Assembly (NCBI RefSeq): GCF_003201475.1
Contig: NZ_QJJK01000023.1
Coordinates: 1-48,440 of the forward strand
Source of the DNA: Chelatococcus asaccharovorans
Lineage (GTDB): Bacteria > Pseudomonadota > Alphaproteobacteria > Rhizobiales > Beijerinckiaceae
Direction: 5' to 3'
Length of the DNA stretch: 48,440 nucleotides
A model generated the notes under the pieces. The model did no database searches. It saw nothing but the letters and a program-made list of their open reading frames with translations, and was not told the origin of the DNA. The position numbers and the translations under genes are program-made. Positions 19,586-44,059 of this stretch are shown here, one piece after another; within the stretch, counting starts at the first letter, position 1, and each line of letters opens with the position of its first letter.

Positions 19586-19918
19586 CGGATACCGGCGTGA
19601 TGAAAGCGTTGCACCGCAATGCGAGTTCAGGCCGATCAGCATGACTAGCCATGCCACCAGGACCGAAGCTCAACGCCTCCTTCTTATACTGCACTGCAAT
19701 ATTGCCGCATTGAATTCTGTGCATGCGCAGCTGGCGAAAAATGCATCCCGATTCGGATTATGGTGGCTTTCGATTACACAGGATATGCCCGTCGCCGGCC
19801 GTCTGGCATCAACGATTGTCCTGGAATGTATTTCCCCTGGCCGACAGACATGCGTAGATTGCGTAAGACATTGGAGCGAGTTTTGCCAAAATCACAATTT
19901 CTACGCGGAGGCGGCTCC

Positions 19919-20953
19919 ATGGGAGAAGCGATCCGTGTATTTGACTGGAGCAAGACCGCTCTCGGTCCTCTTGCCGACTGGCCCGCCACGCTCAAGACCG
20001 CGGTCGGCATGATGGTGAACTCGCGATTTCCGAAGTGCGTCGTGTGGGGCCCCGACTACATCTCTATTTTTAACGACGCCTTTGTTCCGATCCTCGGCGG
20101 GAAAGATAACTGTCTTGGACGCTCGTTTCGCGACATCTGGGCGGAGGTGTGGCCGGAGATCGGCCCCCTCGTGGAGAAAGCCTATGCCGGCGAGGCGACC
20201 TTCATCGAAGATCTTCCGCTGATCCTGGAGCGCTCCGGCTATCCCGAGCAGGCCTGGTTCACCTTCTGCTACAGCCCGATTCGGGACGAGGAGGGGCGCA
20301 TCGGCGGCATGATGGATACCGTCATGGAAACGACGCCCAAGATGTTGGCGGAACGGAATGCCCGGATCGTGAACAGCGAGCTGGCGCATCGCATGAAGAA
20401 TACGCTCGCTGTGGTGGGAGCAATCGCGAACCAGACCTTCAATGCATCGGCATCCATAGGCGAAGCCCAGCACGTCTTCGGCCAGCGGCTGCGCGCTCTC
20501 GCCGACGCGCATTCGCTGCTCACCCAGGCCAGCTGGGCCGGCGCGCCCATACGATCGATCGTCGAAGGCGCCATTGCGCCTCACCGTGGCTCAGCCGAGG
20601 CGGTCGAGATCGAGGGCGCGCCACTCGAACTCGCGGCTCAACAGGCTCTGTCCCTCGCCCTCGCGGTCAATGAGCTGGCGACCAACGCGCTGAAATACGG
20701 CGCCTGGTCGGTTCCAGGCGGCACGATCAGGATTTCGTGGAAGATCGGCCGGCCGAACAGCGATGATATTTTCCAGTTCTTGTGGCTGGAGGAGAACGGC
20801 CCGCTCGTCCAGGCGCCGAAGACAACGGGGTTCGGCTCGCGGCTGCTGGAGCGTGTCGTCGCGCAGGATTTCCGGGGGGAAGTCGCTTTGCGTTACGAAC
20901 CGGGCGGCTTCCGCTATGCGCTGACAACGAAGATGTCTTGCTTGAGTTTTTGA
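19919..20953 (+). CDS. HWE-family sensor histidine kinase with PAS domain
   Basis: 344 residues from the ATG at 19919, which has GGAGG seven bases upstream; earlier in-frame ATGs (19760, 19826, 19850) have none. An N-terminal PAS-like domain (about 5-140) has the DWS.T.LGPL..WP opening and the WGPD...FNDAF segment common in this family. The HWE dimerisation domain carries the phospho-acceptor H157 in ELAHRMKN. The ATP-binding domain has N251 in NELATNALKYGA and the WLEENGP motif that names the family. There is no membrane segment, so it is a soluble sensor. No response regulator is encoded nearby, so it is an orphan kinase, as is common in Hyphomicrobiales, and its partner is unknown. Confidence 0.92.
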   Translation: MGEAIRVFDWSKTALGPLADWPATLKTAVGMMVNSRFPKCVVWGPDYISIFNDAFVPILGGKDNCLGRSFRDIWAEVWPEIGPLVEKAYAGEATFIEDLPLILERSGYPEQAWFTFCYSPIRDEEGRIGGMMDTVMETTPKMLAERNARIVNSELAHRMKNTLAVVGAIANQTFNASASIGEAQHVFGQRLRALADAHSLLTQASWAGAPIRSIVEGAIAPHRGSAEAVEIEGAPLELAAQQALSLALAVNELATNALKYGAWSVPGGTIRISWKIGRPNSDDIFQFLWLEENGPLVQAPKTTGFGSRLLERVVAQDFRGEVALRYEPGGFRYALTTKMSCLSF

Positions 20954-20963: not shown

Positions 20964-22025
20964 TCAGGGCACGAGCACGAGACCCGTTTCGGCGAAGGCG
21001 AGGGCGATGCTGTCGCCAGCCGCGCGGGGGCGTTGGGTGTCCGGGCTGACCACGAAGAGTTCCCCGACCGGGCTTTCCACGATGAGATCCACGTGATTGC
21101 CGAGATAGGAACTCTTGCGGACTATTCCCGGAAGGCCGTTCGGTAAGCCAGGCTCGCTGACCAGCAGACTGTGGGGGCGGATCGCGATCTTCGCCGGCCC
21201 GGCGGCGAGCCCGCGCGCGGGAAGATTGAGCCGGGCCGGTCCGAGCGCGATGTCCGCACGGCCGTCCGTGACGGAGGTGATCGCGACATCGAGAAGGTTC
21301 GCGTCGCCGATGAAGTCGGCCACAAAAGCGTCTGCCGGAGCCTCATAGAGCTCGCGCGGCGATCCCTGCTGGGCGACGCGTGCATTCGACATCACGATGA
21401 TCTTGTCCGAAACCGCGAGCGCTTCCTCCTGGTCGTGGGTCACGTAGGCGACCGTGAGGTTGAGGGACTGCTGCAGGTCGCGGATCTCCTGCCGCACCCT
21501 GCGTCGGAGCTTGGCGTCGAGGTTCGATAGAGGTTCGTCGAACAGGAGGACCTGCGGCTCCAGGACGAGCGCGCGTGCGACGGCGACGCGCTGCTGCTGG
21601 CCGCCGGAGAGCTCCGACGGGTAACGCTTCTCGAAGCCCTTCAGGCCGACCAGCGCCAGTTTTTCAAGCGCCATCTCCTGCGCCTTGGCCTTCGCGAACC
21701 CCTTCACCGTCGGACCGTAGGCGGCGTTCTCCATGACGCTCATATGCGGGAACAGCGCATAGGACTGGAACACCATGCTGACGTCGCGGTCGGCCGCCGA
21801 CAGATGGGTGACGTCCTTTCCGCCAATCAGGATCTCGCCCTCGCTGGCGATCTCCAGCCCCGCGATCATGCGCAGCGTCGTCGTCTTGCCGCAGCCGGAC
21901 GGGCCGAGCAGCGTGACGAGCTGCCCCGCCTCGATCGCGAAGCTGACAGTGTCGACGGCCGTCACCGCGCCATAGCGCATGCTGACGTTGCGGAACTCGA
22001 CGGAGGCAGGGCCGGCCTTGGACAT
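20964..22025 (-). CDS. ABC transporter ATPase, AfuC/FbpC type
   Basis: 353 residues: Walker A GPSGCGKTT (41-49), the Q-loop, the signature LSGGQQQR (about 140), Walker B LLFDEP (about 160), the D-loop LSNLDAK and the H-loop VTHDQ. A C-terminal TOBE domain (about 280-353) is typical of ATPases that serve Fe(III), spermidine or sugar-phosphate importers. It begins 15 bases after the fused permease gene and energises that permease. It is the last gene of the leftward inositol operon. Confidence 0.92.
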   Translation of the reverse strand: MSKAGPASVEFRNVSMRYGAVTAVDTVSFAIEAGQLVTLLGPSGCGKTTTLRMIAGLEIASEGEILIGGKDVTHLSAADRDVSMVFQSYALFPHMSVMENAAYGPTVKGFAKAKAQEMALEKLALVGLKGFEKRYPSELSGGQQQRVAVARALVLEPQVLLFDEPLSNLDAKLRRRVRQEIRDLQQSLNLTVAYVTHDQEEALAVSDKIIVMSNARVAQQGSPRELYEAPADAFVADFIGDANLLDVAITSVTDGRADIALGPARLNLPARGLAAGPAKIAIRPHSLLVSEPGLPNGLPGIVRKSSYLGNHVDLIVESPVGELFVVSPDTQRPRAAGDSIALAFAETGLVLVP

Positions 22026-22040
22026 GGCGGTCTGTGGTCC

Positions 22041-24257
22041 CTATTTGGCGGCTTCGACGGCAGGTTTCGTCAGGCGCGCGGTTTGTTTCGGGGCTTTCGG
22101 CTTGGGAACGGGAACCGCCCGGCGTCCGAGCTTGCGTTCGCCGACGCCGACCTGGATCAGCGCGATGCCGACCGCCATCACGACGATCAGAACCGAGGAA
22201 TAGGCGATGGCCAGACCGAACTCGCCGGCTTCGACCCGGCCGACGATATAGGCCGTCGCCAGATTATATTCGGCCGAGACAAGGAAGATGACCGCGCTGA
22301 CCGAGGTGATGCAGCGCACGAAGCTGTAGACCAGCGCGGTGATCAGCGCCGGCTTGAGCAGCGGCAGCACGACGCGGCGCAGGGTCGTGAAGCTGCGCGC
22401 CCTGAGCGTCATCGACGCCTCGTCGAGGCTCTTGTCGATCTGCGCGAGCCCGGCGATGCCGGAGCGCACGCCCACCGGCATGTTGCGGAACACGAAGGCC
22501 AGGACGAGGATGAGGCCGGTGCCGGTGATTTCGACTGGCGGCACGTTGAACGCCAGGATATAGGCGACGCCGAGCACGGTGCCGGGGATGGCGAAGCTCA
22601 GCATCGTCGTGAATTCGAGCGTCCGGCGTCCCGCGAAGTGCTGACGCGTCAGCAGGAAGGCGGTGATCAAGCCGATCAGGGCGGTCAGCGGCGAGGAAAT
22701 CGCGGCGACCTTCAGCGTCGTGAACAGGGATGGCCAGGCCGCGCCCTCGAAGAAGATGCCGTTGCTGAAGTCGATCGCGAAGCCGGTGCGGTAGTGCTCG
22801 AGCGTCAATGTGTGATCGCGGCCCATGGCCTTCACGAAGCCGCCGATGAGGATCACCGCATAGATCACCGCGGTGAGCAGCACCCACGGCACGATCACCA
22901 CGGCCGATATGACCTTCGCGGAGGTGGGCAGCATCGCCGGAATGCCGGAGTCGCCCTTGCCGGCAACGGTCGTATAGGATTTGGTGCCGAGCCAGCGCTG
23001 CTGGACCCAGAAGGCGCCGAGCGTGAATGCCAGCAGCACGATGGCCAGCACCGCCGCCTGCCCCTGGTTATGCGCCGCGCCGACGACGGCGAAGAAAATC
23101 TTGGTGGACAGGACCTCGAAATTGCCGCCGAGCACCAGCGGATTGCCGAAATCGGCCATGCTCTCGACGAATCCGAGCAGGAAGGCATTGGCGAGCCCCG
23201 GCCGCAACAACGGCCAGGTCACCGTGCGGAAGGTCGACCAGTGCTTGGCGCCCAGTGTCTGTGCGGCCTCTTCCATGCTCGGCGCAATGCCCTGCACCGT
23301 TCCCATGAGCACGAGGAAGGCGATCGGCGCGAAGGCGAGGACCTGCGCAAGAAGGACGCCGGGCAGGCCATAGATCCAGCGCGAGCGCGGAATGCCGACC
23401 CATTCGGCCAGGATGCCGGTGATGGCGCCCGAGCGACCGAACAACAGGATGAGCGCAAGCCCGATGACGAAGGGCGGCGTGATGATCGGCAGAACCGTCA
23501 TGGCCCGCATCAGCCGCTTGCCGGGCATGCGCGTGCGCAGGACGAGCAGGGCGCAGGCCAGCCCGAGCAGGGTCGTGATGACGCCTGTCAGCACGGCGAG
23601 GATCAGCGTATTCCAGGCGACGCCGCAGTTGGTCCCGCCGCCGAGGCAGCCGAGCCCCCAGATCGTCGGGCTCAGGAGCCGCTCGAAGAAGCTGGCGAGG
23701 GCGAGCGTGCCGTCCGATTCGACGAGCGCGCTCTGCAGGATCGTCGCGACGGGATAGAAGACGAACAATCCGATCAGCAGCACGACGATGCCGATCGCCG
23801 AGGTGGTGAAGAGATCGCCCCTGCAATAGCCGCGATAGGCAAGGCCATGGCACATCATGAGGAGCAGGGAGAACAGCGTCATGAGCGCGCCGAAGCCCAT
23901 GCCGGGCTGCGCCTGGCCGGCGCCGCCGAAGAGGGCTGCCAGCCAGGGAATGCCCTGATCGGGCAGTGTGATCGCGAAGCCCTGGGCGAAGAAGGCGATC
24001 AGGCCGAGAAGGCCGATCCAGACAAGGCTGCGCCCGATCCACGGCCGCTCCTCGCGCCCCACCAGGAGGCTCGCAGCGACCAGGGCAAGGCCGATAGGAA
24101 GGAGCCAGGGCGAGGCTCCGGAGAGAACGAGCGCCAATGCCGTTCCGGCCTGGCCGAATGGATAGCCGGCGAGGCTCCCATCCTGCGGCAGGTACCAGGG
24201 AATGAGCACGTAACCGAGCCAGCCGATCAACAGGGCCAGCCGTGTCGAGGCGCGCAT
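22041..24257 (-). CDS. ABC permease with two fused membrane domains, AfuB/FbpB type
   Basis: 738 residues with about twelve predicted helices. Two copies of the permease domain are fused in one chain, each with its EAA loop: EAAQTLGAKHWSTFRTVTWP in the first half and EASMTLRARSFTTLRRVVLP in the second. Two extra helices precede the first domain. Such fused permeases serve the Fe(III) family of importers, which includes AfuABC, shown to carry hexose phosphates. The protein would form the whole channel, working with the binding protein and ATPase next to it. The C-terminus is a short basic, Pro- and Ala-rich tail. Confidence 0.92.
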   Translation of the reverse strand: MRASTRLALLIGWLGYVLIPWYLPQDGSLAGYPFGQAGTALALVLSGASPWLLPIGLALVAASLLVGREERPWIGRSLVWIGLLGLIAFFAQGFAITLPDQGIPWLAALFGGAGQAQPGMGFGALMTLFSLLLMMCHGLAYRGYCRGDLFTTSAIGIVVLLIGLFVFYPVATILQSALVESDGTLALASFFERLLSPTIWGLGCLGGGTNCGVAWNTLILAVLTGVITTLLGLACALLVLRTRMPGKRLMRAMTVLPIITPPFVIGLALILLFGRSGAITGILAEWVGIPRSRWIYGLPGVLLAQVLAFAPIAFLVLMGTVQGIAPSMEEAAQTLGAKHWSTFRTVTWPLLRPGLANAFLLGFVESMADFGNPLVLGGNFEVLSTKIFFAVVGAAHNQGQAAVLAIVLLAFTLGAFWVQQRWLGTKSYTTVAGKGDSGIPAMLPTSAKVISAVVIVPWVLLTAVIYAVILIGGFVKAMGRDHTLTLEHYRTGFAIDFSNGIFFEGAAWPSLFTTLKVAAISSPLTALIGLITAFLLTRQHFAGRRTLEFTTMLSFAIPGTVLGVAYILAFNVPPVEITGTGLILVLAFVFRNMPVGVRSGIAGLAQIDKSLDEASMTLRARSFTTLRRVVLPLLKPALITALVYSFVRCITSVSAVIFLVSAEYNLATAYIVGRVEAGEFGLAIAYSSVLIVVMAVGIALIQVGVGERKLGRRAVPVPKPKAPKQTARLTKPAVEAAK

Positions 24258-24280
24258 GAGGTTCTCTCCGGAGATAAGCG

Positions 24281-24359
24281 GCTGACTTCAGCGGCTTACT
24301 TCAACGGTTTACTTGGGCGAGTTACTTGGGCGGCTTACTTGGGCAACTTACTTGGGCTG
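24281..24359. repeat. 13-bp tandem repeat over the 3' end of the binding-protein gene
   Basis: The core ACTT recurs at 24285, 24298, 24311, 24324, 24337 and 24350, exactly every 13 bases; the last four units share TTACTTGGG. On the minus strand each late unit reads CCCAAGTAA, which is the final Pro, Lys and stop of the binding-protein gene. The terminal codons, including the stop, have therefore been amplified in tandem into the gap before the permease gene. Confidence 0.85.
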
Positions 24360-25379
24360 CGCCTTGATCTCCTTGTCCCATTTGGTCAAAAGCCGTGTGC
24401 GCTCGGCCGAGGACCCGTATTTGACGAAGTCGTAGTTGATGAGCTTCATGTCGGACATCTTCGGGGCCTGCGGCGGGATCGGGGCGTTCTTGTTGGACGG
24501 CACCTGGTAGGACTTGGCCGGCGCGCCCAGCGCCTGCGCCGCCGGCGTCAGCGCCCAGTCGTAGAACTTCTTGGCGTTCTCAAGATTGCGGGCGCCCTTG
24601 ATGATCGACATCGAGCCGATCTCGTAGCCCGTGCCTTCGCAAGGCGCGACCGGCTTGATCGGATCGCCCTGCACCGCGAAGACAACGGCGTCGTGGATGA
24701 AGACGATGCCGACGGCGGTCTCGCCGAGGCTTGCGGCCTTGGCCGGCGCCGCACCGGACTTCGTGTACTGGCTGACGTTCTTGTGGAGCGCGCGGAGATA
24801 ATCGAAGCCCTTGTCCTCGCCCATCAGCTGGACGACGGTGGCGAGCAGCGTATAGGCGGTGCCGGACGAGTTCGGATCGGCGACCTGCACATCATCCTTC
24901 AGCTTGGGGTTGAGCAGGTCGGCCCAGCATTTCGGGTCGGCAAGGCCCTTTTCCTTGATCAGCTGGGTGTTGAAGCCGAAGCCGAGGGCGCCGGCGTAGA
25001 TGCCGATCGCGCGCTTCTTGGCGGCTTTCCACTGTGACAGGGACCAATCCTGCAGGTCCTTGTTCATGGCGGACTCGTATTCCTCGGTGAGCCCTTCTTC
25101 GGCCGCCTGCAGGTGCGGGTCGCCGGTGCCGCCCCACCAGATGTCGCCGCGCGGATTGGAGGCCTCGGCCTTGACCTGCGCATAGACCTCACCGGCCGAT
25201 TTGCGGGTCATCGCAACCTTGATGCCGGTCTCCTTCTCGAAGGCCGTCGACATCGCGCGGCACCATTCCTCCTGGACGCCGCAATACATGACGAGCGAGC
25301 CCTGCGCCGAGGCCGGGGCCGATCCAAACATCGCGGCGGTCGCGAGCACGCTCGCGCCGAGCCAGAATTTCAACTGCAT
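24348..25379 (-). CDS. ABC periplasmic binding protein, AfuA type (predicted phosphorylated inositol/sugar binding)
   Basis: 343 residues from the ATG at 25379, which has GGGAGGTGA upstream; an ATG 15 bases earlier would include that site. The signal peptide is cut after A25 (ASA-Q). The mature protein follows AfuA closely: ADP.SSGTAYT (about 168-177), SQYTKSG (203-209), HD (229-230), PCEGTGYEIG (246-255), SIIKGARNL and INYDF..YGSS near the C-terminus. AfuA of Actinobacillus binds hexose phosphates rather than iron. Lying between an inositol monophosphatase gene and the iol genes, this protein probably binds an inositol phosphate; the exact ligand is inference. The 3' end is tandemly duplicated just downstream. 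Confidence 0.9.
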   Translation of the reverse strand: MQLKFWLGASVLATAAMFGSAPASAQGSLVMYCGVQEEWCRAMSTAFEKETGIKVAMTRKSAGEVYAQVKAEASNPRGDIWWGGTGDPHLQAAEEGLTEEYESAMNKDLQDWSLSQWKAAKKRAIGIYAGALGFGFNTQLIKEKGLADPKCWADLLNPKLKDDVQVADPNSSGTAYTLLATVVQLMGEDKGFDYLRALHKNVSQYTKSGAAPAKAASLGETAVGIVFIHDAVVFAVQGDPIKPVAPCEGTGYEIGSMSIIKGARNLENAKKFYDWALTPAAQALGAPAKSYQVPSNKNAPIPPQAPKMSDMKLINYDFVKYGSSAERTRLLTKWDKEIKAQPK

Positions 25380-25460
25380 AGTCACCTCCCTCAAACGAGA
25401 ACTTTGCGTTCTTCGGTTCAGTCTTTCGACGACGGTGGTCCATCCGCCCGCCGCCGCAAC

Positions 25461-26258
25461 CTATCGTGCCGTCACGGCAATCCCGGTGATTTCACCGAGT
25501 TGTCGCGCCAATGCCGGCGTGCAGCACAGAATGGCATTGCCTTTGGCGATCCCTTCGCCGGCAAAGAAATCACTGATCGATGCCCCAGCTTCGCCGGCGA
25601 TGACGATGCCCGCCGCCACGTCCCAGGCATTGATATGCAGTTCGGCATAGGCGTCGGTGCGACCGTTCGCGACATGGCAGAGGCCGAGCGCTCCGGAGGC
25701 TGCGCGCTTCATCGAACTGCCCGCGGCAAAGCCGCGCGCGACGAGATCGACGTAGCGCTCCGCGGGAATGCGCGTCGACCAGCCGAGCTCGACATAGGCG
25801 CGCCTGATGTCATCGCCGCCGGAGACGGTGATGGGCTTCCCGTTCATCGTCGCGCCTTGTCCGCGCTGCGCTACGTAGAGTTCCTCGAAGGCCGGTGCGA
25901 ACACGATCCCGATGGTGGGAACGCGGTTCAGGAGGAAGCCGATCGAGATGCACCAGTTGCGGTCGCCGCGCGCGAAATTGGAGGTGCCGTCGATCGGATC
26001 GATGATCCAGACCGCGTCGCTGGCCTCGCCGCCGCCTTCCTCGCCGATGATCGTGTCGGTGGGGAAGATGAGGGCGAGCTTCCGGCGCAGGAAATCCTCG
26101 ACGGCGCCGTCCGCGACGGTCAGCCAGTCCTGATCGCCTTTCATGGTGACGCCGAGGCTCTCCTGCCGGCCGAAATAGTCGAGCGCCATGCGCCCGGCTT
26201 CCAGCGCCAGGCCCTGCACGGCATAGAGCCGCAATGCGAGTTCGGTAGGCGTCATCAT
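25461..26258 (-). CDS. Inositol monophosphatase family protein
   Basis: 265 residues of the Mg-dependent, Li-sensitive phosphatase family. The metal-binding motifs are intact: GEE (72-74), DPIDGTSNF (87-95) and WD (212-213, NAWDVAAG). There is no signal peptide, so it acts in the cytosol. Reaction in the family: inositol monophosphate to inositol plus phosphate, although some members prefer histidinol phosphate or other sugar phosphates. Its start overlaps the iolG stop by one base (TGATG), a sign of translational coupling. Placed between iolG and an AfuABC-type importer, it would release free inositol from an imported phosphate ester. M2 at 26255 is an alternative start. Confidence 0.9.
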   Translation of the reverse strand: MMTPTELALRLYAVQGLALEAGRMALDYFGRQESLGVTMKGDQDWLTVADGAVEDFLRRKLALIFPTDTIIGEEGGGEASDAVWIIDPIDGTSNFARGDRNWCISIGFLLNRVPTIGIVFAPAFEELYVAQRGQGATMNGKPITVSGGDDIRRAYVELGWSTRIPAERYVDLVARGFAAGSSMKRAASGALGLCHVANGRTDAYAELHINAWDVAAGIVIAGEAGASISDFFAGEGIAKGNAILCCTPALARQLGEITGIAVTAR

Positions 26259-27250
26259 CAGGCGACCTCTATGGCAACGGGCTTGCCGCTGCGGGCGGAC
26301 TGGGTGGCGGCATCGGCGAGAAGCTGGGCGCGCAGGCCGTCGAGGCCGCTCGGCGAGGGCGCGGCCTTGCCGGCGCAGACCGCGACGAAGGCGTCGAGTT
26401 CCGCCCGATAGGCCGCGGCATAGCGTTCGAGAAAGAAGTTCTGCACGGGATCGGAGCGGAAGCCGTCGCCCGTCGCGATCTCGACGGTGGTCTCGTGGAT
26501 ATTGCCGGCGCGCAGCATGCCCTTCGCGCCATGCACCTCGATGCGCTGGTCGTAGCCGTAGGTCGCGCGGCGCGAGTTGGAAATCTGGGCGATGCGCCCG
26601 CTCGCCGTCTTCATGACGACGGCGGCGGTGTCCACGTCGCCCGCTTCGCCGATCGCCTTGTCGACCAGCGCGGAGCCGAGCGCGAAGACCTCCACCGGCT
26701 CTTCGGCGAGGAGGAAGCGGGCCATGTCGAAATCATGGATCATCATGTCGCGGAAGAGGCCGCCCGAGCGCCGGACATAATCGACCGGCGGCGGGCCGGG
26801 GTCGCGCGAAATCACCGTGACGATCTCGATATCGCCGGCCTCGCCCTGCCGCAGCCGCTTCTCGAGCGCGGCGAAATTGGGGTCGAAGCGTCTGTTGAAG
26901 CCGATCATCAGCGGCTTGCCGGACTTCGCCACCACATCGAGGCAGCGGCGGATGCGGGCGGCGTCGAGATCGACCGGCTTCTCGCAGAAGACGGCCTTGC
27001 CCGCCTCGACCGCTTTCTCGATGAGATCGGCATGGGTGTCGGTCGGCGTGCAGATCAGCACGGCATCGATCGCGGCATCGCTGAGAATGGCCTCGGCGCT
27101 GGCCACCTTGGCGCCCGCGAGCTCTGCCAGAGAGGCCGCGGCGTCGGCGGAGGCGTCCGCCACCGCCACCAGCCGGGCATCGCCGCGCGCGGCGACGTTG
27201 AGCCCGTGGATCCGCCCGATCCTGCCTGCGCCGAGAAGTCCAAACCGCAT
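26258..27250 (-). CDS. iolG: Inositol 2-dehydrogenase (Gfo/Idh/MocA family)
   Basis: 330 residues. Of three consecutive ATGs (27256, 27253, 27250) the last has the best spacing from AAGGA. The Rossmann motif GLLGAGRIG (4-12) binds NAD. EKP (90-92) and IHDFD (171-175) supply the catalytic Lys, Asp and His of inositol dehydrogenases. GFNRRFDPNF (118-127) is also characteristic. Reaction: myo-inositol + NAD to scyllo-inosose (2-keto-myo-inositol) + NADH, the entry step of the iol pathway. It sits in the leftward operon with the SDR, the monophosphatase and the importer. Some family members prefer scyllo- or chiro-inositol, so the isomer is not certain. Confidence 0.9.
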   Translation of the reverse strand: MRFGLLGAGRIGRIHGLNVAARGDARLVAVADASADAAASLAELAGAKVASAEAILSDAAIDAVLICTPTDTHADLIEKAVEAGKAVFCEKPVDLDAARIRRCLDVVAKSGKPLMIGFNRRFDPNFAALEKRLRQGEAGDIEIVTVISRDPGPPPVDYVRRSGGLFRDMMIHDFDMARFLLAEEPVEVFALGSALVDKAIGEAGDVDTAAVVMKTASGRIAQISNSRRATYGYDQRIEVHGAKGMLRAGNIHETTVEIATGDGFRSDPVQNFFLERYAAAYRAELDAFVAVCAGKAAPSPSGLDGLRAQLLADAATQSARSGKPVAIEVA

Positions 27251-27278
27251 CATCATGTCCTTGTCCGTCGTTCGGTCA

Positions 27279-27323
27279 GTCGTGGGCGCCGTCAATTCAT
27301 GGGCGCCGTCAATCATGGGCGCC
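27279..27323. repeat. Tandem duplication of the SDR gene 3' end
   Basis: GGGCGCC recurs at 27284, 27301 and 27317, spaced 17 and 16 bases apart. On the minus strand each unit reads GGCGCCCA(T/C)GA with a following stop TGA, which is the Gly-Ala-His-Asp-stop end of the SDR gene. Two extra degenerate copies follow the true stop, as seen independently at the binding-protein gene. Confidence 0.75.
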
Positions 27324-28127
27324 GAGAATGGTCTGGTCGAAGTCGATATTGGCGCCGGTCATCAACCCTGATTCGCCGGAGGCGAGATAGGCGACCGCCT
27401 TTGCCACCTCGCGCGGATCGACGAGCCGGCCGAAAGGCTGCCTTCTGGCCGCCTCCTCCTGCCAGCCGTCCTCGGCGCCATGGCGCAGCCGCAGGATCGC
27501 ATCCTCGCCCGGTGTCGCCATCCAGCCGATATTGAGCCCGTTGACCCGGATCCGGTCAGCGCGCAGCCCATAGGCGGCGTTGCGCGTCAGCGTGGCGAGC
27601 GCACCCTTCGACACGCTGTAGGCTGCGAGGAAGGGCTGGCCGCCGTGCGCCGACATCGACTGGATGTTGACGACCGTGCCGGCTATCCCGAGACGCCGCA
27701 TCAGAGTGGCGGCGTCCTGGATCAGGAAGAACGGCGCCGTGAGGTTGACCGCCATAATCCTGTTATAGAGTTCTGGCGTCGTGTCGAGGATCGTGCCGCG
27801 ATCGGTATCCCCGGCCGCATTGACGAGGATGTCGAGCCGGCCAAAGTGCCGCTCGGCGACCGGCACGATGCTCTGCACGGCAGCAAGGTCGCTGAGGTCG
27901 GCGGCGTGAAAGATGGCCCGGCACCCTTGCGCGCACAGGGCAGCCGCGACCGATGCGCCGCGTTCGCGGTTGCGGCCGGTCACGACGATGCCGGTGAGCC
28001 CGCGCGCCGCGAATTCACGCGCAATCGCCTCCCCGAGGCCCTGCGTGCCACCGGTGACGATCGCGACCTTGCCGCCGAGGTCCCGGCTATAGGCATCCGC
28101 TTGAGGCAAACTGGTCGCTCCCACCAT
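27309..28127 (-). CDS. Short-chain dehydrogenase/reductase in the inositol operon
   Basis: 272 residues. The NAD(P) motif TGGTQGLG (25-32), NAAG (103-106), and the catalytic Ser (157 or 159), Y170 and K174 (YSVSK) form a complete classical SDR active site. It is the first gene of the leftward operon (SDR, iolG, monophosphatase, importer), so it probably oxidises an inositol isomer or a related polyol, or interconverts inososes. The exact reaction is not deducible. The ATG at 28127 has a poor ribosome binding site and lies close to the divergent promoter, so a very short leader, or the GTG at 28124, is possible. Confidence 0.85.
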   Translation of the reverse strand: MVGATSLPQADAYSRDLGGKVAIVTGGTQGLGEAIAREFAARGLTGIVVTGRNRERGASVAAALCAQGCRAIFHAADLSDLAAVQSIVPVAERHFGRLDILVNAAGDTDRGTILDTTPELYNRIMAVNLTAPFFLIQDAATLMRRLGIAGTVVNIQSMSAHGGQPFLAAYSVSKGALATLTRNAAYGLRADRIRVNGLNIGWMATPGEDAILRLRHGAEDGWQEEAARRQPFGRLVDPREVAKAVAYLASGESGLMTGANIDFDQTILGAHD

Positions 28128-28154
28128 TAAAATAGTACATTAATTTTGTTTTTC

Positions 28155-28183
28155 TTGACTAATGGAACAAATATTCCATTCTC
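28155..28183 (+). promoter_or_regulatory. iol divergent promoter with IolR-type operator GGAA-N6-TTCC
   Basis: ATGGAA (28162-28167) and TTCCAT (28174-28179) flank six bases. The core matches GGAA-N6-TTCC, the motif reported for the RpiR-type repressor IolR of Sinorhizobium. TTGACT (28155-28160) is a good -35 for the rightward iolR-iolCDEB operon, and the operator fills the gap to a weak -10 near 28178. The site also lies 35 bases upstream of the SDR start, so one bound repressor could block both operons. Confidence 0.75.
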
Positions 28184-28221
28184 GGGGGCGCCAAGTCAAG
28201 GTCGAAGAAGCTTTCATTCTC

Positions 28222-29070
28222 ATGTCCCCAGCGTTATCCCGCGAGCATGCCCGATCCGCGTATGAGGGGTTCGTCACGCGTTTGCGTGACCGGGCCGAGG
28301 CGTTGCCCAAACGCCTGCGGCAAGTTGCCGATTTCGCGCTGTCACACCCCGATGACATGGCGCTGCTGACAGCCGCGCAGGTGGCGCAGCGAGCGGGTGT
28401 CCAGGCCTCGACCCTCGTGCGCTTCGCGCAGGCTCTGGACTTTTCAGGTTTCAGCGAGCTTCAGCAGGTCTTTCGCGCGCGGCTGCGCCAGCAGTTTCCC
28501 GACTATCGCGAGCGCATCGAGAGTTTGCGTGGTGAAGGCGCGGCCGGTCCGGATATGGCGCGCGTGCTGCTTGAGGGCTTCGTGGCGGCAAGCCGCAATT
28601 CGCTCGCACAGCTCGAAGCCAGCGTGATCCATACCGATATCGACCGCGCGACCGATCTCCTTGCCGGTGCCCAGAGCATCGTCCTCGTCGGCGCGCGGCG
28701 CATGTTCCCGGTCGTGTCCTACCTCGCCTACGCCTTCGGCAAGCTCGGCATCCGCGCCGTCCTGGTCGACCAGATCGCCGGGCTCGGTGCGGAACAGGCC
28801 TTTGTGGCACGGGCCGACGATGTCCTGCTCGCCGTGAGCTGCGCCCCCTATACGCCCGAGATCATCGACATCGCGGCGGACGCCCATCGGCGTGGCGTTC
28901 CCGTGATCGCCCTCACCGACGGCCCGCTCAGCCCGCTGGCGCGGAATTGCCTCCTGTGGCTGGAAGTGCAGGAGGCCGACTACGGCGCCTTCCGCTCCAT
29001 GGCCGCCACCTTCGCCCTGGCCATGACGCTGGCCGTCGCGACTGCCGAGAAAGCACAGGCAGATGACTGA
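28222..29070 (+). CDS. iolR: RpiR/MurR-family regulator, IolR-like
   Basis: 282 residues from the ATG at 28222. An earlier ATG (28162) lies inside the operator and upstream of the probable transcription start, so it is unlikely. The N-terminal RpiR helix-turn-helix (about 14-90) includes LPKRLRQVADFAL and the recognition region AGVQASTLVRFAQALDFSGFSELQQ. A SIS sugar-phosphate-binding domain follows (about 130-260). Rhizobial IolR proteins of this family repress iol genes until an inositol catabolite binds the SIS domain. It is the first gene of the rightward operon, overlaps iolC by eight bases, and is predicted to repress itself and both divergent operons. Confidence 0.85.
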   Translation: MSPALSREHARSAYEGFVTRLRDRAEALPKRLRQVADFALSHPDDMALLTAAQVAQRAGVQASTLVRFAQALDFSGFSELQQVFRARLRQQFPDYRERIESLRGEGAAGPDMARVLLEGFVAASRNSLAQLEASVIHTDIDRATDLLAGAQSIVLVGARRMFPVVSYLAYAFGKLGIRAVLVDQIAGLGAEQAFVARADDVLLAVSCAPYTPEIIDIAADAHRRGVPVIALTDGPLSPLARNCLLWLEVQEADYGAFRSMAATFALAMTLAVATAEKAQADD

Positions 29071-30994
29071 ACCAGAACTTGATCTGATTGCGATCGGCCG
29101 CTCTTCGGTGGATCTCTACGGCCAGCAGATCGGTGGCCGGCTGGAGGACATGGCGAGCTTTTCCAAGGCGGTCGGAGGGTGTCCCACCAACATCGCCATC
29201 GGCGCCGCGCGGCTTGGCCTCAAGACGGCGGTGATCACCCGCGTCGGCGACGAGCAGATGGGCCGCTTCATCCTGGAGCAGCTTGGCCGGGAAGGGGTCG
29301 ACACGTCGGGCGTCATCGTCGATCCCAAGCGCCTGACGTCCCTCGTCGTCCTCGGCGTGCGTGACGAACATACGTTCCCGCTGATCTTCTACCGGACGGA
29401 CTGCGCCGACGCCGCGCTCGACGAGAGCGAGATCAGCGAGGATTTCATCGCCTCCGCCCGCGCCGTCGTGGTCACGGGCACGCATTTTGCCATTGCCGGC
29501 GCCGCCAAGGCGCAGCGCAAGGCGATAGCGCTTGCGAAAAAGCACGGGCGCAGGGTCGTCTTCGATGTCGACTATCGCCCCAATCTCTGGGGCCTGGCCG
29601 GCCATGGGGCAGGCGAGGTGCGCTATATCCGCTCCGAGACCGTGACGAGCCATCTCAAGACAATCCTGCCGGATTGCGATCTCATCGTCGGCACGGAGGA
29701 GGAACTGCATGCCGCCGGCGGCAGCGAGGACACCCTGACGGCCATCCGTGCCATCCGGGCGCTGTCCGGGGCGACCATCGTCTGCAAGCGCGGCCCGATG
29801 GGCTGCGTGGTCTTTCCCGGCGCCATCCCGGAATCGCTGGAGATGGGCATCAAGGGGCCGGGCTTCCCGGTCGAGGTCTACAACGTGCTCGGCGCCGGGG
29901 ATGCCTTCATGGCGGGCTTTCTCCGCGGGTACCTGCGCGACGAGCCGATCGCGACCTGCTGCGCCTGGGCCAATGCCTGCGGGGCCTTCGCGGTGTCGCG
30001 GCTCTTGTGTTCGCCGGAGAGTCCGACCTTCGCGGAGCTGGATTATTTCCTGAAGCACGGCTCGCCAAACCGCGCGCTCCGCGAGGATGCCGCGCTCAAC
30101 CACATCCACTGGGCCACGACACGACGCCCGCAGCCGCAAACCCTGATGGCGCTGGCCATCGACCACCGCGCGCAGATCGAAGCCATCGCCGACGAGGCGG
30201 GCGTTCCGCATGGCCGGATCGCCGCGTTCAAGCAGCTCGCCGTCGCGGCGGCGGCCCGCGTTGCCAGGGATATGGCGGATTCCGGGGATCTGGCGGGTTT
30301 CGGTATGCTGATCGACGGCCGCCATGGCCGTGAGGCCCTGTTCCGCGCGGCCGATCACGGCTTCTGGGTGGCGCGGCCGCTGGAGGTGCCGGGTTCCCGC
30401 CCCCTGGCGCTGGAGACCGATGCGGAGGGCTCGCTCGGCGCGGCGCTCAATGAATGGCCGGTGGACCATGTCGCCAAGTGCCTGTGCTTCTATCATCCCG
30501 ACGACGACGAAGCACTGAAGGCCACGCAGGAAGCGACGCTCAGGCGTGTAGCGCTGGCGTGCAGGCAGGTCGGGCGTGAACTTCTGGTGGAGATCATCGC
30601 CTCGAAGCATGGACCGCTCGGCGATGACGCCATGGCCCAGGTGATGCGCCGGCTCTATGACTGCGGGATCAAGCCGGACTGGTGGAAACTTGAGAGCCAG
30701 CCGAGCGCCGCAGCCTGGGCTGCGATCGACGCGGCGATCGCCGAGAACGATCCCCTGTGTCGCGGCGTCGTGCTGCTTGGGCTTGATGCGCCGCTGGCGG
30801 AGCTCGAAGACGCGTTCCGTCTGGCGCGCGGGGCGGCCAGCGTGAAGGGTTTCGCCGTCGGGCGCTCGATCTTCGGCGCTGCGGCGCGCGATTGGTTTGC
30901 CGGGCGGATCGATGACGAGGCGGCCATCGCCGCGATGGCCGCGCGATTTGGCCGGCTGGTCCAGTCATGGCAACAATCCGGGCAACAGGCCTGA
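29063..30994 (+). CDS. iolC: 5-dehydro-2-deoxygluconokinase fused to DUF2090 (IolC, bifunctional)
   Basis: 643 residues, about twice the length of single-domain IolC. The N-terminal PfkB/ribokinase domain (about 5-330) has GGCPTNIAIGAARLG and the C-terminal anion hole NVLGAGDAFMAGF with catalytic D280. It phosphorylates 2-deoxy-5-keto-gluconate. The C-terminal DUF2090 domain (about 345-643) has an aldolase-like TIM-barrel pattern and is often annotated as the 2-deoxy-5-keto-6-phosphogluconate aldolase (IolJ) activity; that activity is plausible here because no separate iolJ is present. It begins in the iolR stop and is followed 27 bases later by iolD. Confidence 0.92.
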   Translation: MTEPELDLIAIGRSSVDLYGQQIGGRLEDMASFSKAVGGCPTNIAIGAARLGLKTAVITRVGDEQMGRFILEQLGREGVDTSGVIVDPKRLTSLVVLGVRDEHTFPLIFYRTDCADAALDESEISEDFIASARAVVVTGTHFAIAGAAKAQRKAIALAKKHGRRVVFDVDYRPNLWGLAGHGAGEVRYIRSETVTSHLKTILPDCDLIVGTEEELHAAGGSEDTLTAIRAIRALSGATIVCKRGPMGCVVFPGAIPESLEMGIKGPGFPVEVYNVLGAGDAFMAGFLRGYLRDEPIATCCAWANACGAFAVSRLLCSPESPTFAELDYFLKHGSPNRALREDAALNHIHWATTRRPQPQTLMALAIDHRAQIEAIADEAGVPHGRIAAFKQLAVAAAARVARDMADSGDLAGFGMLIDGRHGREALFRAADHGFWVARPLEVPGSRPLALETDAEGSLGAALNEWPVDHVAKCLCFYHPDDDEALKATQEATLRRVALACRQVGRELLVEIIASKHGPLGDDAMAQVMRRLYDCGIKPDWWKLESQPSAAAWAAIDAAIAENDPLCRGVVLLGLDAPLAELEDAFRLARGAASVKGFAVGRSIFGAAARDWFAGRIDDEAAIAAMAARFGRLVQSWQQSGQQA

Positions 30995-31021
30995 GCCGCA
31001 GCGGCCGTGAGGAGAGGGGTG

Positions 31022-32863
31022 ATGGCAACAGTAAGGCTCACCATGGCGCAGGCGCTTGTCGCAGCCATGGCGGCGCAGAAGACGACGGTTGATGGACAGG
31101 TGGCGCCCATCTTCGCGGCCGTCTGGGCGATCTTCGGGCATGGCAATGTCGCGGGCCTCGGCGAGGCGCTCTATGCCATGCGCGAGCGGCTGCCGACGCT
31201 GCGCGCCCACAACGAGCAGGCCATGGCGCATGCGGCCATCGCCTTCGCCAAGACCGCGCGGCGCCGGCGGATGATGGCCGTGACGAGCTCGATCGGCCCG
31301 GGCGCGACCAACATGGTCACGGCGGCGGCCGTCGCCCATGTCAATCGCCTGCCGCTGCTGCTGCTCCCCGGCGATGTCTTCGCCGGGCGCCGGCCGGATC
31401 CGGTTTTGCAGCAGATCGAGGATTTCGGGGATGGCACCGTCTCGGCGAACGACTGCTTTCGCCCGGTTTCGCGCTATTTCGATCGCATCACGCGGCCCGA
31501 GCAGATCATCCCGGCCTTCGAGCGCGCCATGCAGGTGCTGACCGATCCGTCCGATTGCGGACCGGTAACGCTCGCGCTCTGCCAGGACGTGCAGACCGAG
31601 GCCTACGACTATCCCGAGAGCTTTTTTGCCGAGCGGCTCTGGCAGCCGCGCCGCCTGCGGCCGGACGCGGCCGAGCTGGATGGGGCGATCGCACGCCTCA
31701 GGGGCGCGCAACGCCCGCTCGTGGTGGCTGGCGGCGGCGTGCTCTACAGCGAGGCGGAACAGGCGCTCGCGCAGTTCTGCACCGCTCACGGCATCCCCGT
31801 GGCGGAAACCCAAAGCGGCAAGAGCAGCCTGCCGCACGCGCATCCCTTGAACCTCGGCGCGATCGGCGTCACGGGGACGGCCGCCGCCAATGAGGCGGCG
31901 CGCCGCGCCGATGTCGTACTGGCTGTCGGGACGCGGCTGCAGGATTTCACCACCGGCTCCTGGACGCTGTTCGCCGATCCCGCGGTGGCGATCATCGGCT
32001 TGAATACGCAGGCCTTCGATGCCGGCAAGCACCGCGCGCGCCCTTTGGTCGCCGATGCGAAGGCCGGACTTGTCGAACTCTCCGCGGGACTGTCCGGCTG
32101 GACGGCTCCAGCGGCGTGGCGCACCGGCGCCGAGACCGCCCGTGCGGACTGGCTCGCGACCGCGGCGCGTTATACAGCCGCGGGGAACGCGGCCTTGCCG
32201 AGCGATGCCCAGGTGATCGGCGCGGTGCAGCGCCAGAGCGCGCCCGGCGATATCGTGCTGTGCGCGGCGGGCGGGCTGCCCGGCGAATTGCACAAGCTCT
32301 GGCAGGCGGGCGCACCCGGCGGCTACCATATGGAATACGGCTATTCCTGCATGGGCTATGAGATCGCCGGCGGGCTCGGCGCCAAGCTCGCCGATCCGGC
32401 GCGCGACGTCATCGTCATGGTGGGCGACGGCTCCTATCTCATGATGAATTCGGAGATCGCGACATCGGTGATGCTGGGCGCGAAGCTGACGATCGTCGTG
32501 CTCGACAACAGGGGCTTCGGCTGCATCAACCGCCTGCAGAACGCCACCGGCGGGGCGCCCTTCAACAATCTCCTGCGCGACACGCGCCACGAGACGCTGC
32601 CGGCGATCGATTTCGCGGCGCATGCGGCGTCGCTCGGGGCCATCTCGCGCAAGGTCGCCAGCCTCTCCGAGCTGGAGACGGCGCTCATGGAGGCACGTGC
32701 CCATGAACTGACCAGCGTCATCGTCATCGATACCGACCCGCTGGCTTCCACCGATGCCGGCGGCCATTGGTGGGACGTCGCGGTGCCCGAGACGTCCGCC
32801 CGCGACGAGGTCAGGACGGCCCGGCGCCTCTATGACGAGGCGCTGGCGCGGCGCGACAATTGA
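31022..32863 (+). CDS. iolD: 3D-(3,5/4)-trihydroxycyclohexane-1,2-dione hydrolase
   Basis: 613 residues from the ATG at 31022, behind GGAGAGGGG; the GTG at 31007 is an upstream in-frame alternative. It is a thiamine diphosphate enzyme: the N-terminal Pyr domain has the catalytic Glu in HNEQAMAHAA, and the C-terminal PP domain has the GDGSYLMMN cofactor motif (GDG 468-470) followed by NRGFGCIN. Reaction: ring opening of trihydroxycyclohexanedione to 5-deoxy-glucuronate, the step after IolE. It lies in the order iolC-iolD-iolE-iolB, the usual rhizobial arrangement. Confidence 0.95.
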   Translation: MATVRLTMAQALVAAMAAQKTTVDGQVAPIFAAVWAIFGHGNVAGLGEALYAMRERLPTLRAHNEQAMAHAAIAFAKTARRRRMMAVTSSIGPGATNMVTAAAVAHVNRLPLLLLPGDVFAGRRPDPVLQQIEDFGDGTVSANDCFRPVSRYFDRITRPEQIIPAFERAMQVLTDPSDCGPVTLALCQDVQTEAYDYPESFFAERLWQPRRLRPDAAELDGAIARLRGAQRPLVVAGGGVLYSEAEQALAQFCTAHGIPVAETQSGKSSLPHAHPLNLGAIGVTGTAAANEAARRADVVLAVGTRLQDFTTGSWTLFADPAVAIIGLNTQAFDAGKHRARPLVADAKAGLVELSAGLSGWTAPAAWRTGAETARADWLATAARYTAAGNAALPSDAQVIGAVQRQSAPGDIVLCAAGGLPGELHKLWQAGAPGGYHMEYGYSCMGYEIAGGLGAKLADPARDVIVMVGDGSYLMMNSEIATSVMLGAKLTIVVLDNRGFGCINRLQNATGGAPFNNLLRDTRHETLPAIDFAAHAASLGAISRKVASLSELETALMEARAHELTSVIVIDTDPLASTDAGGHWWDVAVPETSARDEVRTARRLYDEALARRDN

Positions 32864-32875
32864 GGTGAGGACGAC

Positions 32876-33775
32876 ATGACGATAAGGATCGGCGCCAACC
32901 CCATCGGTTGGTCGAACGACGACCTGCAGGAGATCGGTGGCACGACGACGCTGGGCACCTGCCTCGCCGAGGCGTGCGAGGCCGGTTTCGAGGGCATGGA
33001 ACTCGGCCACAAGTTTCCGCGCGAGCCGCAGACTTTGAAGGCCGTGCTGGCGCCCTTCGGCATGGCCTGCATCTCCGGCTGGTATTCCGCGGAGCTGCTG
33101 CGCCGCGATGCCGAGGCGGAGATGCGCCATCTCAGGCCGCATCTCGACCTCCTGAAGGCGATGGGTTCAACCGTACTCGTCTTCGCCGAGACCTCGAACG
33201 CCATCCATGGCGACCGGTCGCGGCCGCTGTCAGAGCGCCCGGTGATGAAGGCCGGCGACTGGGCGGAGTTCGGCCGGCGCGTCACCGAGGTCGCCGAGCG
33301 CACCTACGCCGAGGGGGTGCGGCTGGTCTACCACCACCACATGGGCACGATCGTCGAGAGTGAGGCCGATATCGACGCCTTCATGGCGGCGACCGGCGAG
33401 GCCGCCCATCTCCTGCTCGACACGGGTCACGCCACCTGGGGCGGGGCCGATCCGGCCGCGCTGGCGCGGCGCTATCGCCCGCGCATCAGCCATGTGCATG
33501 CCAAGGATGTGCGCCGCGCGGTGATGGAACAGGCGCGTGCCGAGGACTGGAGCTTCCTCGATGCGGTGCTCGGCAAGGGGGATGAACTCGGCGTCTATAC
33601 GGTCCCGGGTGACGGCATGGTCGACTATGCCGCGGTGTTCAGGGCGCTGCCGGGCTATTCCGGCTGGGTCGTCGTCGAGGCCGAGCAGGACCCGGAGAAG
33701 GCCAATCCGCTGACCTATGCGAAAAAGGGCGTTGCCCATCTCAAGCAAAGTCTCAGGGAGGCGGGGCTCGCCTGA
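32876..33775 (+). CDS. iolE: myo-Inosose-2 dehydratase
   Basis: 299 residues, of the xylose isomerase-like TIM-barrel family. It opens with the IolE signature IGANPIGWSNDD, and has the metal-binding segments GMELGHKF, HHHMGT and HVHAKDVR. Reaction: 2-keto-myo-inositol to trihydroxycyclohexane-1,2-dione plus water, upstream of IolD. It begins 12 bases after the iolD stop with AGGTGAGGA upstream. Confidence 0.95.
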   Translation: MTIRIGANPIGWSNDDLQEIGGTTTLGTCLAEACEAGFEGMELGHKFPREPQTLKAVLAPFGMACISGWYSAELLRRDAEAEMRHLRPHLDLLKAMGSTVLVFAETSNAIHGDRSRPLSERPVMKAGDWAEFGRRVTEVAERTYAEGVRLVYHHHMGTIVESEADIDAFMAATGEAAHLLLDTGHATWGGADPAALARRYRPRISHVHAKDVRRAVMEQARAEDWSFLDAVLGKGDELGVYTVPGDGMVDYAAVFRALPGYSGWVVVEAEQDPEKANPLTYAKKGVAHLKQSLREAGLA

Positions 33776-33788
33776 GCTTCGAACTGCG

Positions 33789-34592
33789 ATGTCCAGACTG
33801 CTCGTGAAACCGCATGCCCCCGACGCCGAGGGATGCGTCCACGCCATAACACCCGAGAGCGCCGGCTGGAGCCATGTCGGCTTCGCCGTTCATCGGCTGG
33901 CGGACGGCCAGACGGTTTCCCGTGCCACCGGCGACCGCGAGCATTGCCTCGTGCTGTTGTCCGGCAAGGTCGCGGCGACGGCCGGCGAGACCGATTTCGG
34001 CGTCATCGGCGGACGCGCCTCGCCCTTCGAGGCCGATCCCTGGTCGCTTTACGTGCCGGCGGGATCGCAGTGGTCGATCACGGCTCAAGGCCCCTGCGAG
34101 GTCGCGCTCTGCTCGGCACCCGGTGTCGTCGGCGCACGCCCCGCGCGGGTCATCGCCCCGCGGGACGTCGGTTGCCAGACGCGGGGGGAGGGCAGCAACA
34201 CCCGCCATGTCCGCAACATCCTGCCGGAGACCGAACCCGCCGACGGATTGCTGGTGGTCGAGGTCATCACGCCCGCCGGCTGCTGGTCGAGCTATCCGCC
34301 CCACAAGCACGACGAGGACCGGCTGCCCGCCGAGTCGCAGCTGGAAGAAACCTATTATCATCGGCTGAACCCGCCGCAGGGCTTCGGCTTCCAGCGCGTC
34401 TATACCGACGACCGCTCGCTCGACGAGACCTTCGCCTTCGCGGATGGCGACGTCGTCCTCGTGCCGCGCGGCTACCATCCCGTCGGCGCCCCCCATGGCT
34501 ACGATCTGTATTATCTCAATGTCATGGCGGGACCGAAGCGCATCTGGCGGTTCCACAACGACCCGGCGCATGCGTGGATGCTGGGGTCGTGA
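33789..34592 (+). CDS. iolB: 5-deoxy-glucuronate isomerase
   Basis: 267 residues from the ATG at 33789, 13 bases after iolE. It is a bicupin of the IolB/KduI family. Metal-binding histidines lie in YPPHKHDED, the signature EETYYHRLNPPQGFGFQRVYTDDRSLDE follows, and a second cupin segment is VPRGYHPVGAPHGYDLYYLN. Reaction: 5-deoxy-glucuronate to 5-keto-2-deoxygluconate, the substrate of IolC. It is the last gene of the operon; iolA (methylmalonate-semialdehyde dehydrogenase) is absent from the window. Confidence 0.94.
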   Translation: MSRLLVKPHAPDAEGCVHAITPESAGWSHVGFAVHRLADGQTVSRATGDREHCLVLLSGKVAATAGETDFGVIGGRASPFEADPWSLYVPAGSQWSITAQGPCEVALCSAPGVVGARPARVIAPRDVGCQTRGEGSNTRHVRNILPETEPADGLLVVEVITPAGCWSSYPPHKHDEDRLPAESQLEETYYHRLNPPQGFGFQRVYTDDRSLDETFAFADGDVVLVPRGYHPVGAPHGYDLYYLNVMAGPKRIWRFHNDPAHAWMLGS

Positions 34593-35392: not shown

Positions 35393-35737
35393 AGACTATT
35401 CAATAAAACTGAAAAATGAATACTTATATAGTTTTCTGGTGTTCGCCAGATGACGCTCGCGCTGATCGCGAGGCCGGCGCCGCGGATGGAATAGGCGCTC
35501 GCCCCCGATGATTCGGGCGGCGGCAACCGCGCTGCTGGCCTGTCCAGTCTTCTCCCTGCCCGATAGCCAGTGATTCGGAGCGCCGCATCGCCTCTTCAAT
35601 GTTATTATTTGATCCTATATTATGAAAATTTCCCGGTAAGACGCCCCCAAGACGCCCCTATCTTGCAATCAGACTAGATTCCATCCCGAATTCTGTTACG
35701 GGAAATAGTTATGGTGGCTTGCTCGGGGGGTGATTTT
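35393..35737. other. Intergenic region upstream of the autotransporter gene
   Basis: About 345 bases. The left half (35440-35600) is GC-rich with no supported gene; a minus-strand frame there lacks similarity. The right half is AT-rich and contains a direct repeat, AGACGCCCCC/AGACGCCCC (35639-35657), and probably the autotransporter promoter. The leader ends in GGGGGG before the ATG. Confidence 0.4.
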
Positions 35738-41521: not shown

Positions 41522-41568
41522 GGCTTCATAAATCCGTTGCATGAGCAGGCTATAGATCGTTATGTTTA

Positions 41569-42755: not shown

Positions 42756-42770
42756 CCAGGAGCCAAGCCC

Positions 42771-43901: not shown

Positions 43902-43914
43902 GCTTCGCCTTGCG

Positions 43915-43941: not shown

Positions 43942-44059
43942 TGCCCAGCACCCTGGAGAGCGCGGTTCCACGCCTGAATGACTGAGGGCGTGGACCGCGG
44001 ATTGCCATTGTTGGGACGCCCATCCCGGACGTCGCCTTCCCCTGCCGAGAATTGCCGTC

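Follow-up and report, generated by a model that had tools for sequence, protein, structure and literature searches.

Which compound would an ABC importer of the AfuABC class carry when its genes lie in one block with iolG and diverge from the other genes of inositol catabolism? The original prediction on this DNA had proposed that an inositol phosphate is imported, dephosphorylated in the cytosol, oxidised by IolG and degraded by the other iol enzymes. We analysed this locus within its window, i.e. the whole stretch of DNA, which is an entire contig of 48,440 bases from the genome (7.25 Mb in 40 contigs) of a soil bacterium related to Bosea.

Organization of the locus

Two divergent gene blocks occupy positions 20964-34592, and every gene in them is intact. 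The leftward block contains the genes for a short-chain dehydrogenase-type (SDR) oxidoreductase, IolG, an inositol monophosphatase (IMPase) family protein, an AfuA-type binding protein, a fused permease and an ATPase, in this order; the rightward block is iolR, iolC (fused to DUF2090), iolD, iolE and iolB. All the genes named in the original prediction are thus present in the order that it gave, and the one-base overlap that it had described between the IMPase gene and iolG was confirmed. The features are listed below.

20964-22025, minus strand: AfuC-type ABC ATPase (ABC_tran and TOBE_2)
22041-24257, minus strand: AfuB-type fused permease (two BPD_transp_1 stretches)
24348-25394, minus strand: AfuA-type periplasmic binding protein (nearest solved chains and pocket residues)
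25461-26258, minus strand: IMPase family phosphatase (PF00459, 186 bits; catalytic residues)
26258-27316, minus strand: iolG, inositol 2-dehydrogenase (TIGR04380, 446.6 over a cut-off of 355)
27309-28127, minus strand: SDR oxidoreductase of the PRK06198 subfamily (389 over a cut-off of 240)
28164-28177, no strand: IolR-type operator GGAACAAATATTCC in the divergent promoter (motif match; motif and IolR regulation from passages of PMC2597717)
28162-29070, plus strand: iolR, RpiR-type regulator (HTH_6 and SIS)
29063-30994, plus strand: iolC kinase fused to a DUF2090 aldolase (NF047869, 731 over 600; PF09863)
31007-32863, plus strand: iolD (TIGR04377, 934 over 715)
32876-33775, plus strand: iolE (TIGR04379, 377.5 over 290)
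33717-34592, plus strand: iolB (TIGR04378, 339.4 over 205)

The identities of five iol enzymes (IolG, IolC-DUF2090, IolD, IolE and IolB) rest on curated NCBIfam cut-offs, each of which was passed. Two gene starts probably need correction. The first ATG of the iolR open reading frame (ORF), at 28162, touches the palindrome at 28164-28177, and translation hence probably begins at an ATG further on, at about 28222. Similarly, the profile match of IolB starts only at residue 43 of its ORF, so that iolB probably starts downstream of 33717. AfuB of Actinobacillus pleuropneumoniae is presumably also a fused permease. A gene for an HWE histidine kinase with a PAS domain (19760-20953) adjoins the AfuC gene.

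Recurrence of the gene association

The contigs of named genomes were scanned for AfuA relatives. At least 587 stretches matched, 578 were confirmed and the best 80 were analysed, which is no census. At least 9.5 kb of upstream sequence was available for 65 of these 80 loci, some stretches being short, and a locus was labelled as iol-linked if its fetched stretch encoded IolC, IolD, IolE or IolG at 45% identity or more. The closest kin of the AfuA-type protein of the window belong to Boseaceae and Bosea, with 93% identity to that of locus L137.

Among the best 80 of the 578 confirmed relatives, an IMPase gene is found near the AfuA gene in 70 and iol genes in 39, all 39 of which also have the IMPase. 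In 31 loci, the fetched stretch contains the IMPase gene but no iol genes, and 10 have neither. The co-occurrence in other genomes for which the original prediction had proposed a search was found. The iol-linked loci belong to taxa that include Bosea, Bradyrhizobium, Beijerinckiaceae, Microvirga massiliensis, metagenome-assembled genomes (MAGs) of Rhodospirillaceae and one betaproteobacterial MAG (L211). Their gene orders vary, as seen in L175, L186, L189, L211 and L212: the order is iolD-E-B-C-IMPase-AfuA in L186 and L189 and iolD-E-B-IMPase-AfuA in L211, and the IMPase gene adjoins iolR in L175. In a tree of 160 AfuA rows, the iol label requires 11 changes, at least seven of them forced by starred branches.

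An order-level search of 297 genomes yielded close AfuA relatives in 64. In 60 neighbourhoods taken from this search, an IMPase gene lies within 6 kb in 31 and iol genes are present in five. Two of the five iol-linked loci (L044 and L045) have the IMPase; no IMPase gene was detected in the fetched stretches of the other three (L074, L075 and L080, all of genus g91), of which those of L074 and L075 are truncated where the contig ends. IolD is encoded in 51 of the 64 genomes with AfuA as opposed to 58 of the 233 others (stratified odds ratio 5.1, uncorrected for kinship). However, xylose isomerase behaves likewise (48/64 versus 72/233, odds ratio 6.7, also uncorrected for kinship), and the co-occurrence of AfuA and IolD therefore partly reflects lifestyle. 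In all 19 tested genomes that have IMPase-AfuABC without a local iolCDEB set, 15 of which are Microvirga, IolD is encoded elsewhere.

At least two AfuA-like binding proteins are encoded in L083, L084, L087-L091, L176, L184, L189, L191 and L198, some of them between the permease and ATPase genes. In Rhizobium etli, passages of a published study list an 'afuA' product (RHE_RS10880) and an IMPase (RHE_RS10865), near to each other in locus-tag number and both detected in minimal medium (PMC9611204). The two may represent this IMPase-AfuABC module under an iron-transport annotation.

A conserved IolR-type operator

A Caulobacter mutant with a deletion of iolR shows derepression of ibpA, idhA and iolC, upstream of which lies the palindrome GGAA-N6-TTCC; according to the same passages, further alphaproteobacteria also have the motif, whereas B. 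japonicum does not (PMC2597717). The divergent promoter of the window carries an exact copy at 28164, flanked as TGGAA-N6-TTCCA. Among 23 relatives of the SDR-iolG-IMPase-AfuABC type with at least 150 bp of upstream sequence, 21 have the operator within 180 bp upstream. Shuffled sequences gave 0.0024 per region, a rate that serves as a guide and not as a probability since the relatives are not independent. No iolC, iolD or iolE gene was found in the fetched stretch of 10 of these 21 operator-bearing loci. Three of these genomes were checked (L143, L151 and L157): their iolC, iolD, iolE and iolB genes are at another place, where iolR and iolC likewise have a site of this kind between them.

Other loci gave the opposite result: within the same 180 bp, no operator was found upstream of 31 IMPase-only loci or of six iol loci that start with the IMPase gene, and only one of nine iolG-IMPase loci has it. 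In L175, the site directly precedes the IMPase gene. A chance neighbourhood was rejected on the grounds of the 39 iol-linked loci among the best 80 of 578 and of the operator. Taken together, this association, the diversity of gene orders and the conserved operator provide good support for the view that AfuABC and the IMPase belong to the inositol regulon.

Kinship and pocket of the binding protein

The solved chains that best match the binding protein are AfuA (4r72, 310 bits), 8x1a (307 bits) and P5PA (6wce, 261 bits), followed by a putrescine-binding protein with 49 bits only. With AfuA as its top solved relative, the assignment of the importer to the AfuABC class in the original prediction holds, and the four motifs that it had quoted (SSGTAYT, SQYTKSG, HD and PCEGTGYEIG) are all present. 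Two of these AfuA-type chains, 4r72 and 8x1a, were given iron-type names by their depositors, in the case of 8x1a that of an iron(III) transporter protein. Apart from the AfuA type, chains named for iron binding score 40.5 bits at best, compared with 310 for AfuA. Judged from kinship alone, iron uptake was rejected, and the binding of Fe(III), which the original prediction had named as evidence against itself, thus appears improbable. The protein also misses the cut-off of the PhnS2 2-aminoethylphosphonate-binding family (TIGR03261), with 211.8 versus 392.75.

According to passages of the structural studies, AfuA binds glucose 6-phosphate (G6P), fructose 6-phosphate (F6P) and sedoheptulose 7-phosphate (S7P) (PMC4546632), and P5PA binds pyridoxal phosphate (PMC8427247). 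The sugar-side contacts of AfuA with G6P are H205, D206, E229, Y103 and Q269, and S37, G38, T60, S148, G149, T150 and G185 surround the phosphate (PMC4546632). The protein of the window retains all of them, including the H205-D206-E229 triad and T150, except that S37 is replaced with Ala. In the comparison of pocket residues that the original prediction had suggested, the triad and most phosphate contacts were thus kept and Ser37 was not. In AfuA, the S37A substitution causes an approximately 40-fold loss of affinity, with the Kd rising from 0.023 to 0.9 uM, yet G6P is still bound (PMC4546632). Other changes near the pocket are Ser9 to Gly, Thr11 to Gln, Gly36 to Ser and Ile186 to Ala. The Gln at position 11 is shared with P5PA (PMC8427247). 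P5PA lacks D206 and E229, both of which the protein of the window keeps, making the latter AfuA-like rather than P5PA-like.

Most of these pocket residues are conserved in 46 iol-linked binding-protein rows. G38, S148, G149, T150, G185, E229 and Q269 are each found in all 46, and T60, H205 and D206 in 44; losses of T60, F203, H205 or D206 are confined to two second paralogues (L189 and L191). Position 37 is Ala in 30 rows, Ser in 15 and Thr in one. By these comparisons, the phosphate site is mostly retained, with one contact weakened. The combination of Gln11 and Ala186 was considered as a signature of an inositol-phosphate pocket; it occurs in 43 of the 46 iol-linked rows, but also in 52 other rows, and is therefore not diagnostic. 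A structure model built on eight sequences was poor (mean pLDDT 61.2) and was left unused.

Could AfuABC instead have switched to free inositol, or to another unphosphorylated cyclitol, and serve as the inositol importer of this lineage, with the IMPase as a hitchhiker or acting on endogenous inositol phosphate? We regard this as unlikely. The loss of Ser37 would fit it, as would the iol-linked AfuABC loci without a detected IMPase in genus g91 and the absence of any other importer from the iol divergon, but G38, T60, S148, G149, T150 and G185 on the phosphate side remain conserved, and the 39 iol-linked loci among the best 80 of 578 all have an IMPase, with intact catalytic residues in 38 of the 38 rows examined. 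The distribution of other importers bears on the same point and agrees both with free inositol and with inositol phosphate as the ligand. In Microvirga L228, a sugar-type ABC importer adjoins iolR, and its PF13407 binding protein is closest to a CUT2-named chain. The genome of the window has no close relative of this iol-linked protein, the best match reaching 60 bits and 29% identity, which leaves AfuABC as the sole importer seen tied to iol genes in a search that covered neither MFS-type carriers nor InoEFGK. This genome has 23 PF13407 hits; when four of them were compared with solved structures in search of an inositol-type match, nothing decisive emerged. The AfuA-type pocket and the paired phosphatase support a phosphorylated ligand as the preferred reading.

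The phosphatase

The IMPase has E73, E74, D87, I89, D90, G91, T92, W212 and D213, which we take to be the metal-binding and catalytic residues of its family. Although it shares the PF00459 fold and the catalytic motifs with HisN and SuhB/IMPase, it scores below the cut-offs of both HisN (TIGR02067, 141.8 versus 275.15) and PRK10757. Six other PF00459 genes are present in the genome, one of which passes the HisN cut-off (317.6 over 275.15). A role as histidinol phosphatase, an activity that the original prediction had mentioned as contradicting it, was rejected on these scores. The IMPases linked to AfuABC form a group in a quick tree of 102 rows and are separated from five of the genome's six other family members (support 86); because of the long branches and this level of support, the grouping represents a tendency only. 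Thirty control loci of the same genome, i.e. seven other AfuA-like hits and the 23 PF13407 hits, some of which are LacI-type regulators, have no IMPase gene within about 1.5 kb. The genome does not encode a beta-propeller phytase, the one phytase family that was searched, which counts against the uptake of inositol phosphate.

Pairing of phosphatase and importer outside the iol context

IMPase-AfuABC genes also lie beside zwf and edd, for glucose-6-phosphate dehydrogenase and 6-phosphogluconate dehydratase, in L059, L065 and L068. In other members of the Hyphomicrobiales-type order, two-component systems are found beside AfuABC and the IMPase; five clusters of this kind were distinguished, and one or another of them is present in 18 of the 60 loci (Pfam analyses of these neighbourhoods were run on representatives). 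In L096, L099 and L100, HAD hydrolase genes adjoin the AfuC gene where many relatives have the IMPase, L099 being assigned by clustering with L100. These contexts suggest that a cytosolic phosphatase is a frequent partner of this importer class and that the context decides on the sugar. The presence of the IMPase was accordingly rejected as proof of the substrate. The argument from the IMPase to inositol phosphate in the original prediction stood as far as the pairing with the importer is concerned and was otherwise weakened, the pair occurring without iol genes in 31 of the best 80 of 578 loci and beside zwf and edd.

It appears quite improbable that the locus of the window encodes an importer for sugar phosphates in general, combined with a phosphatase of broad specificity, for which inositol phosphate would be at most one substrate among several. 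The ligands of AfuA (G6P, F6P and S7P; PMC4546632) and the zwf/edd loci agree with such a system, and the promoter region common with iolRCDEB, the operon with iolG and the IolR-type operator argue against it. Two AfuABC loci are present in genome G082. One of them, L045, contains iol genes and the IMPase gene; the other, L102, has zwf and edd (identified by clustering), no detected IMPase and a binding protein with Phe at position 205 and Ser at position 103. This suggests a division of labour, which also argues against a general importer.

Proposed pathway and relation to known systems

We consider it reasonably likely that the two gene blocks form a divergon that is controlled by IolR and serves the use of phosphorylated inositol. 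Inositol monophosphate would be captured by the periplasmic binding protein and pass intact into the cell by way of the AfuBC-type permease and ATPase. The cytosolic IMPase-family enzyme would then strip off the phosphate, IolG would oxidise free inositol to inosose, and IolE, IolD, IolB and the IolC kinase-aldolase would take inosose through the known pathway; the SDR oxidoreductase perhaps acts on another inositol isomer. The analysis establishes the genes and their intact state, the operator sequence and the recurring association, from which we infer one-operon transcription, control by the IolR of the window, the phosphatase substrate and the flux. Of the import and catabolism originally proposed, regulon membership was supported, as was a phosphorylated ligand by the pocket; inositol phosphate as the ligand, which is not readable from sequence, we only infer.

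The AfuABC system of A. pleuropneumoniae has a binding protein of the same family, a permease and an ATPase, and the contacts H205, D206, E229, Y103 and Q269 and most phosphate contacts are common to both (PMC4546632). The system of the window differs at Ser37, Gly36, Ser9, Thr11 and Ile186 and adds a phosphatase and the iol pathway. The IbpA-IatA-IatP/IolR regulon of Caulobacter and rhizobia has the same GGAA-N6-TTCC motif before importer and iol genes; unlike the window, its importer is of the sugar type for free inositol, and passages of the study name no phosphatase (PMC2597717). Its IolR, like that of the window, is of the RpiR type, as passages of another study state for S. meliloti (PMC8877191).

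Another ABC importer, InoEFGK, is already annotated for inositol phosphate. Unlike the AfuABC of the window, we take it to be a CUT1-type system with separate permeases. It appears as an inositol-phosphate transport system, KEGG module M00599, in passages of PMC8129789 and PMC11767280, with inoEFG in PMC12008989, and as an inositol importer within the inositol regulon of Thermotoga in PMC3750489. The IolR of Thermotoga is a ROK-family protein that, according to the passages available, responds to neither inositol nor inositol phosphate. The inositol-phosphate label of InoEFGK is an annotation, with no binding test in the passages of these sources. Other passages list an ABC transporter for myo-inositol 1-phosphate in Rhizobium etli bacteroids (PMC9611204) and inositol 1-phosphate transport among functions enriched in the pecan rhizosphere (PMC10433825).

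Each component is already known, be it the class of importer, the family of phosphatase or the pathway, and the import of inositol phosphate by the ABC system InoEFGK is on record as an annotation. AfuABC as an inositol-phosphate importer was not found in the literature searched, which included few subscription journals. If correct, our proposal would extend the range of AfuABC from hexose phosphates to cyclitol phosphates, add a second, unrelated-looking importer class for inositol phosphate beside InoEFGK, and link the breakdown of phytate and phosphoinositides directly to the carbon and phosphorus supply of bacteria.

A second IolR-type site and a second importer

A further palindrome lies at 41589, between a gene for a CPDase-like protein and a divergent operon for another ABC importer:

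41006-41542, minus strand: CPDase-like 2H phosphoesterase, a possible additional regulon member (PF07823, 33.1 bits over 21)
41589-41602, no strand: second IolR-type site GGAAGATTAATTCC (motif match; recurs in relatives)
41643-45708, plus strand: second ABC importer operon (Pfam), with an ATPase (41643-42755), a binding protein (42771-43901), a permease (44060-44896) and, in an ORF that stops at 45708, a further permease domain

The second importer is encoded in 14 of 24 genomes searched, with the exact site upstream in 11 of the 14. Of 12 neighbourhoods, nine have the exact site in the promoter and 10 a divergently oriented CPDase-like gene, compared with 0.0045 sites per 250 bp in shuffled sequences. 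The arrangement recurs in Bosea and Bradyrhizobium. Such half-sites may be common to other RpiR-type regulators, and control of the second importer by IolR is therefore a guess.

This region touches on a last alternative, namely that the ligand of AfuABC is another phosphorylated cyclitol or a diester, such as glycerophosphoinositol, inositol cyclic phosphate or a phosphorylated inosamine or methyl-inositol, which would yield inositol after extra steps. IMPase-family enzymes are monoesterases and the divergon itself is devoid of a diesterase, which makes this alternative very unlikely in our view, even with an SDR gene beside iolG and with the CPDase-like gene and the second importer, preceded by its IolR-type site, 6-11 kb away. 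A broader scheme retains inositol monophosphate as the ligand of AfuABC: the IolR regulon of Bosea and its kin would serve phosphoinositide scavenging through two importers, with the importer at 41643-45708 taking up an inositol cyclic phosphate or a phosphodiester; the CPDase-like enzyme would open this compound to inositol monophosphate, which would then follow the route through the IMPase and the iol enzymes. We hold this scheme to be a rather distant prospect. In Bosea sp. OK403 (L255), the genes of the second importer directly follow the AfuC gene.

Two other regions of the window were inspected by eye. A 997-residue ORF (35711-38704) resembles an autotransporter beta-barrel protein at its C-terminal end, and a transposase-like ORF and a tandemly repetitive ORF lie at the end of the contig (46624-48436).
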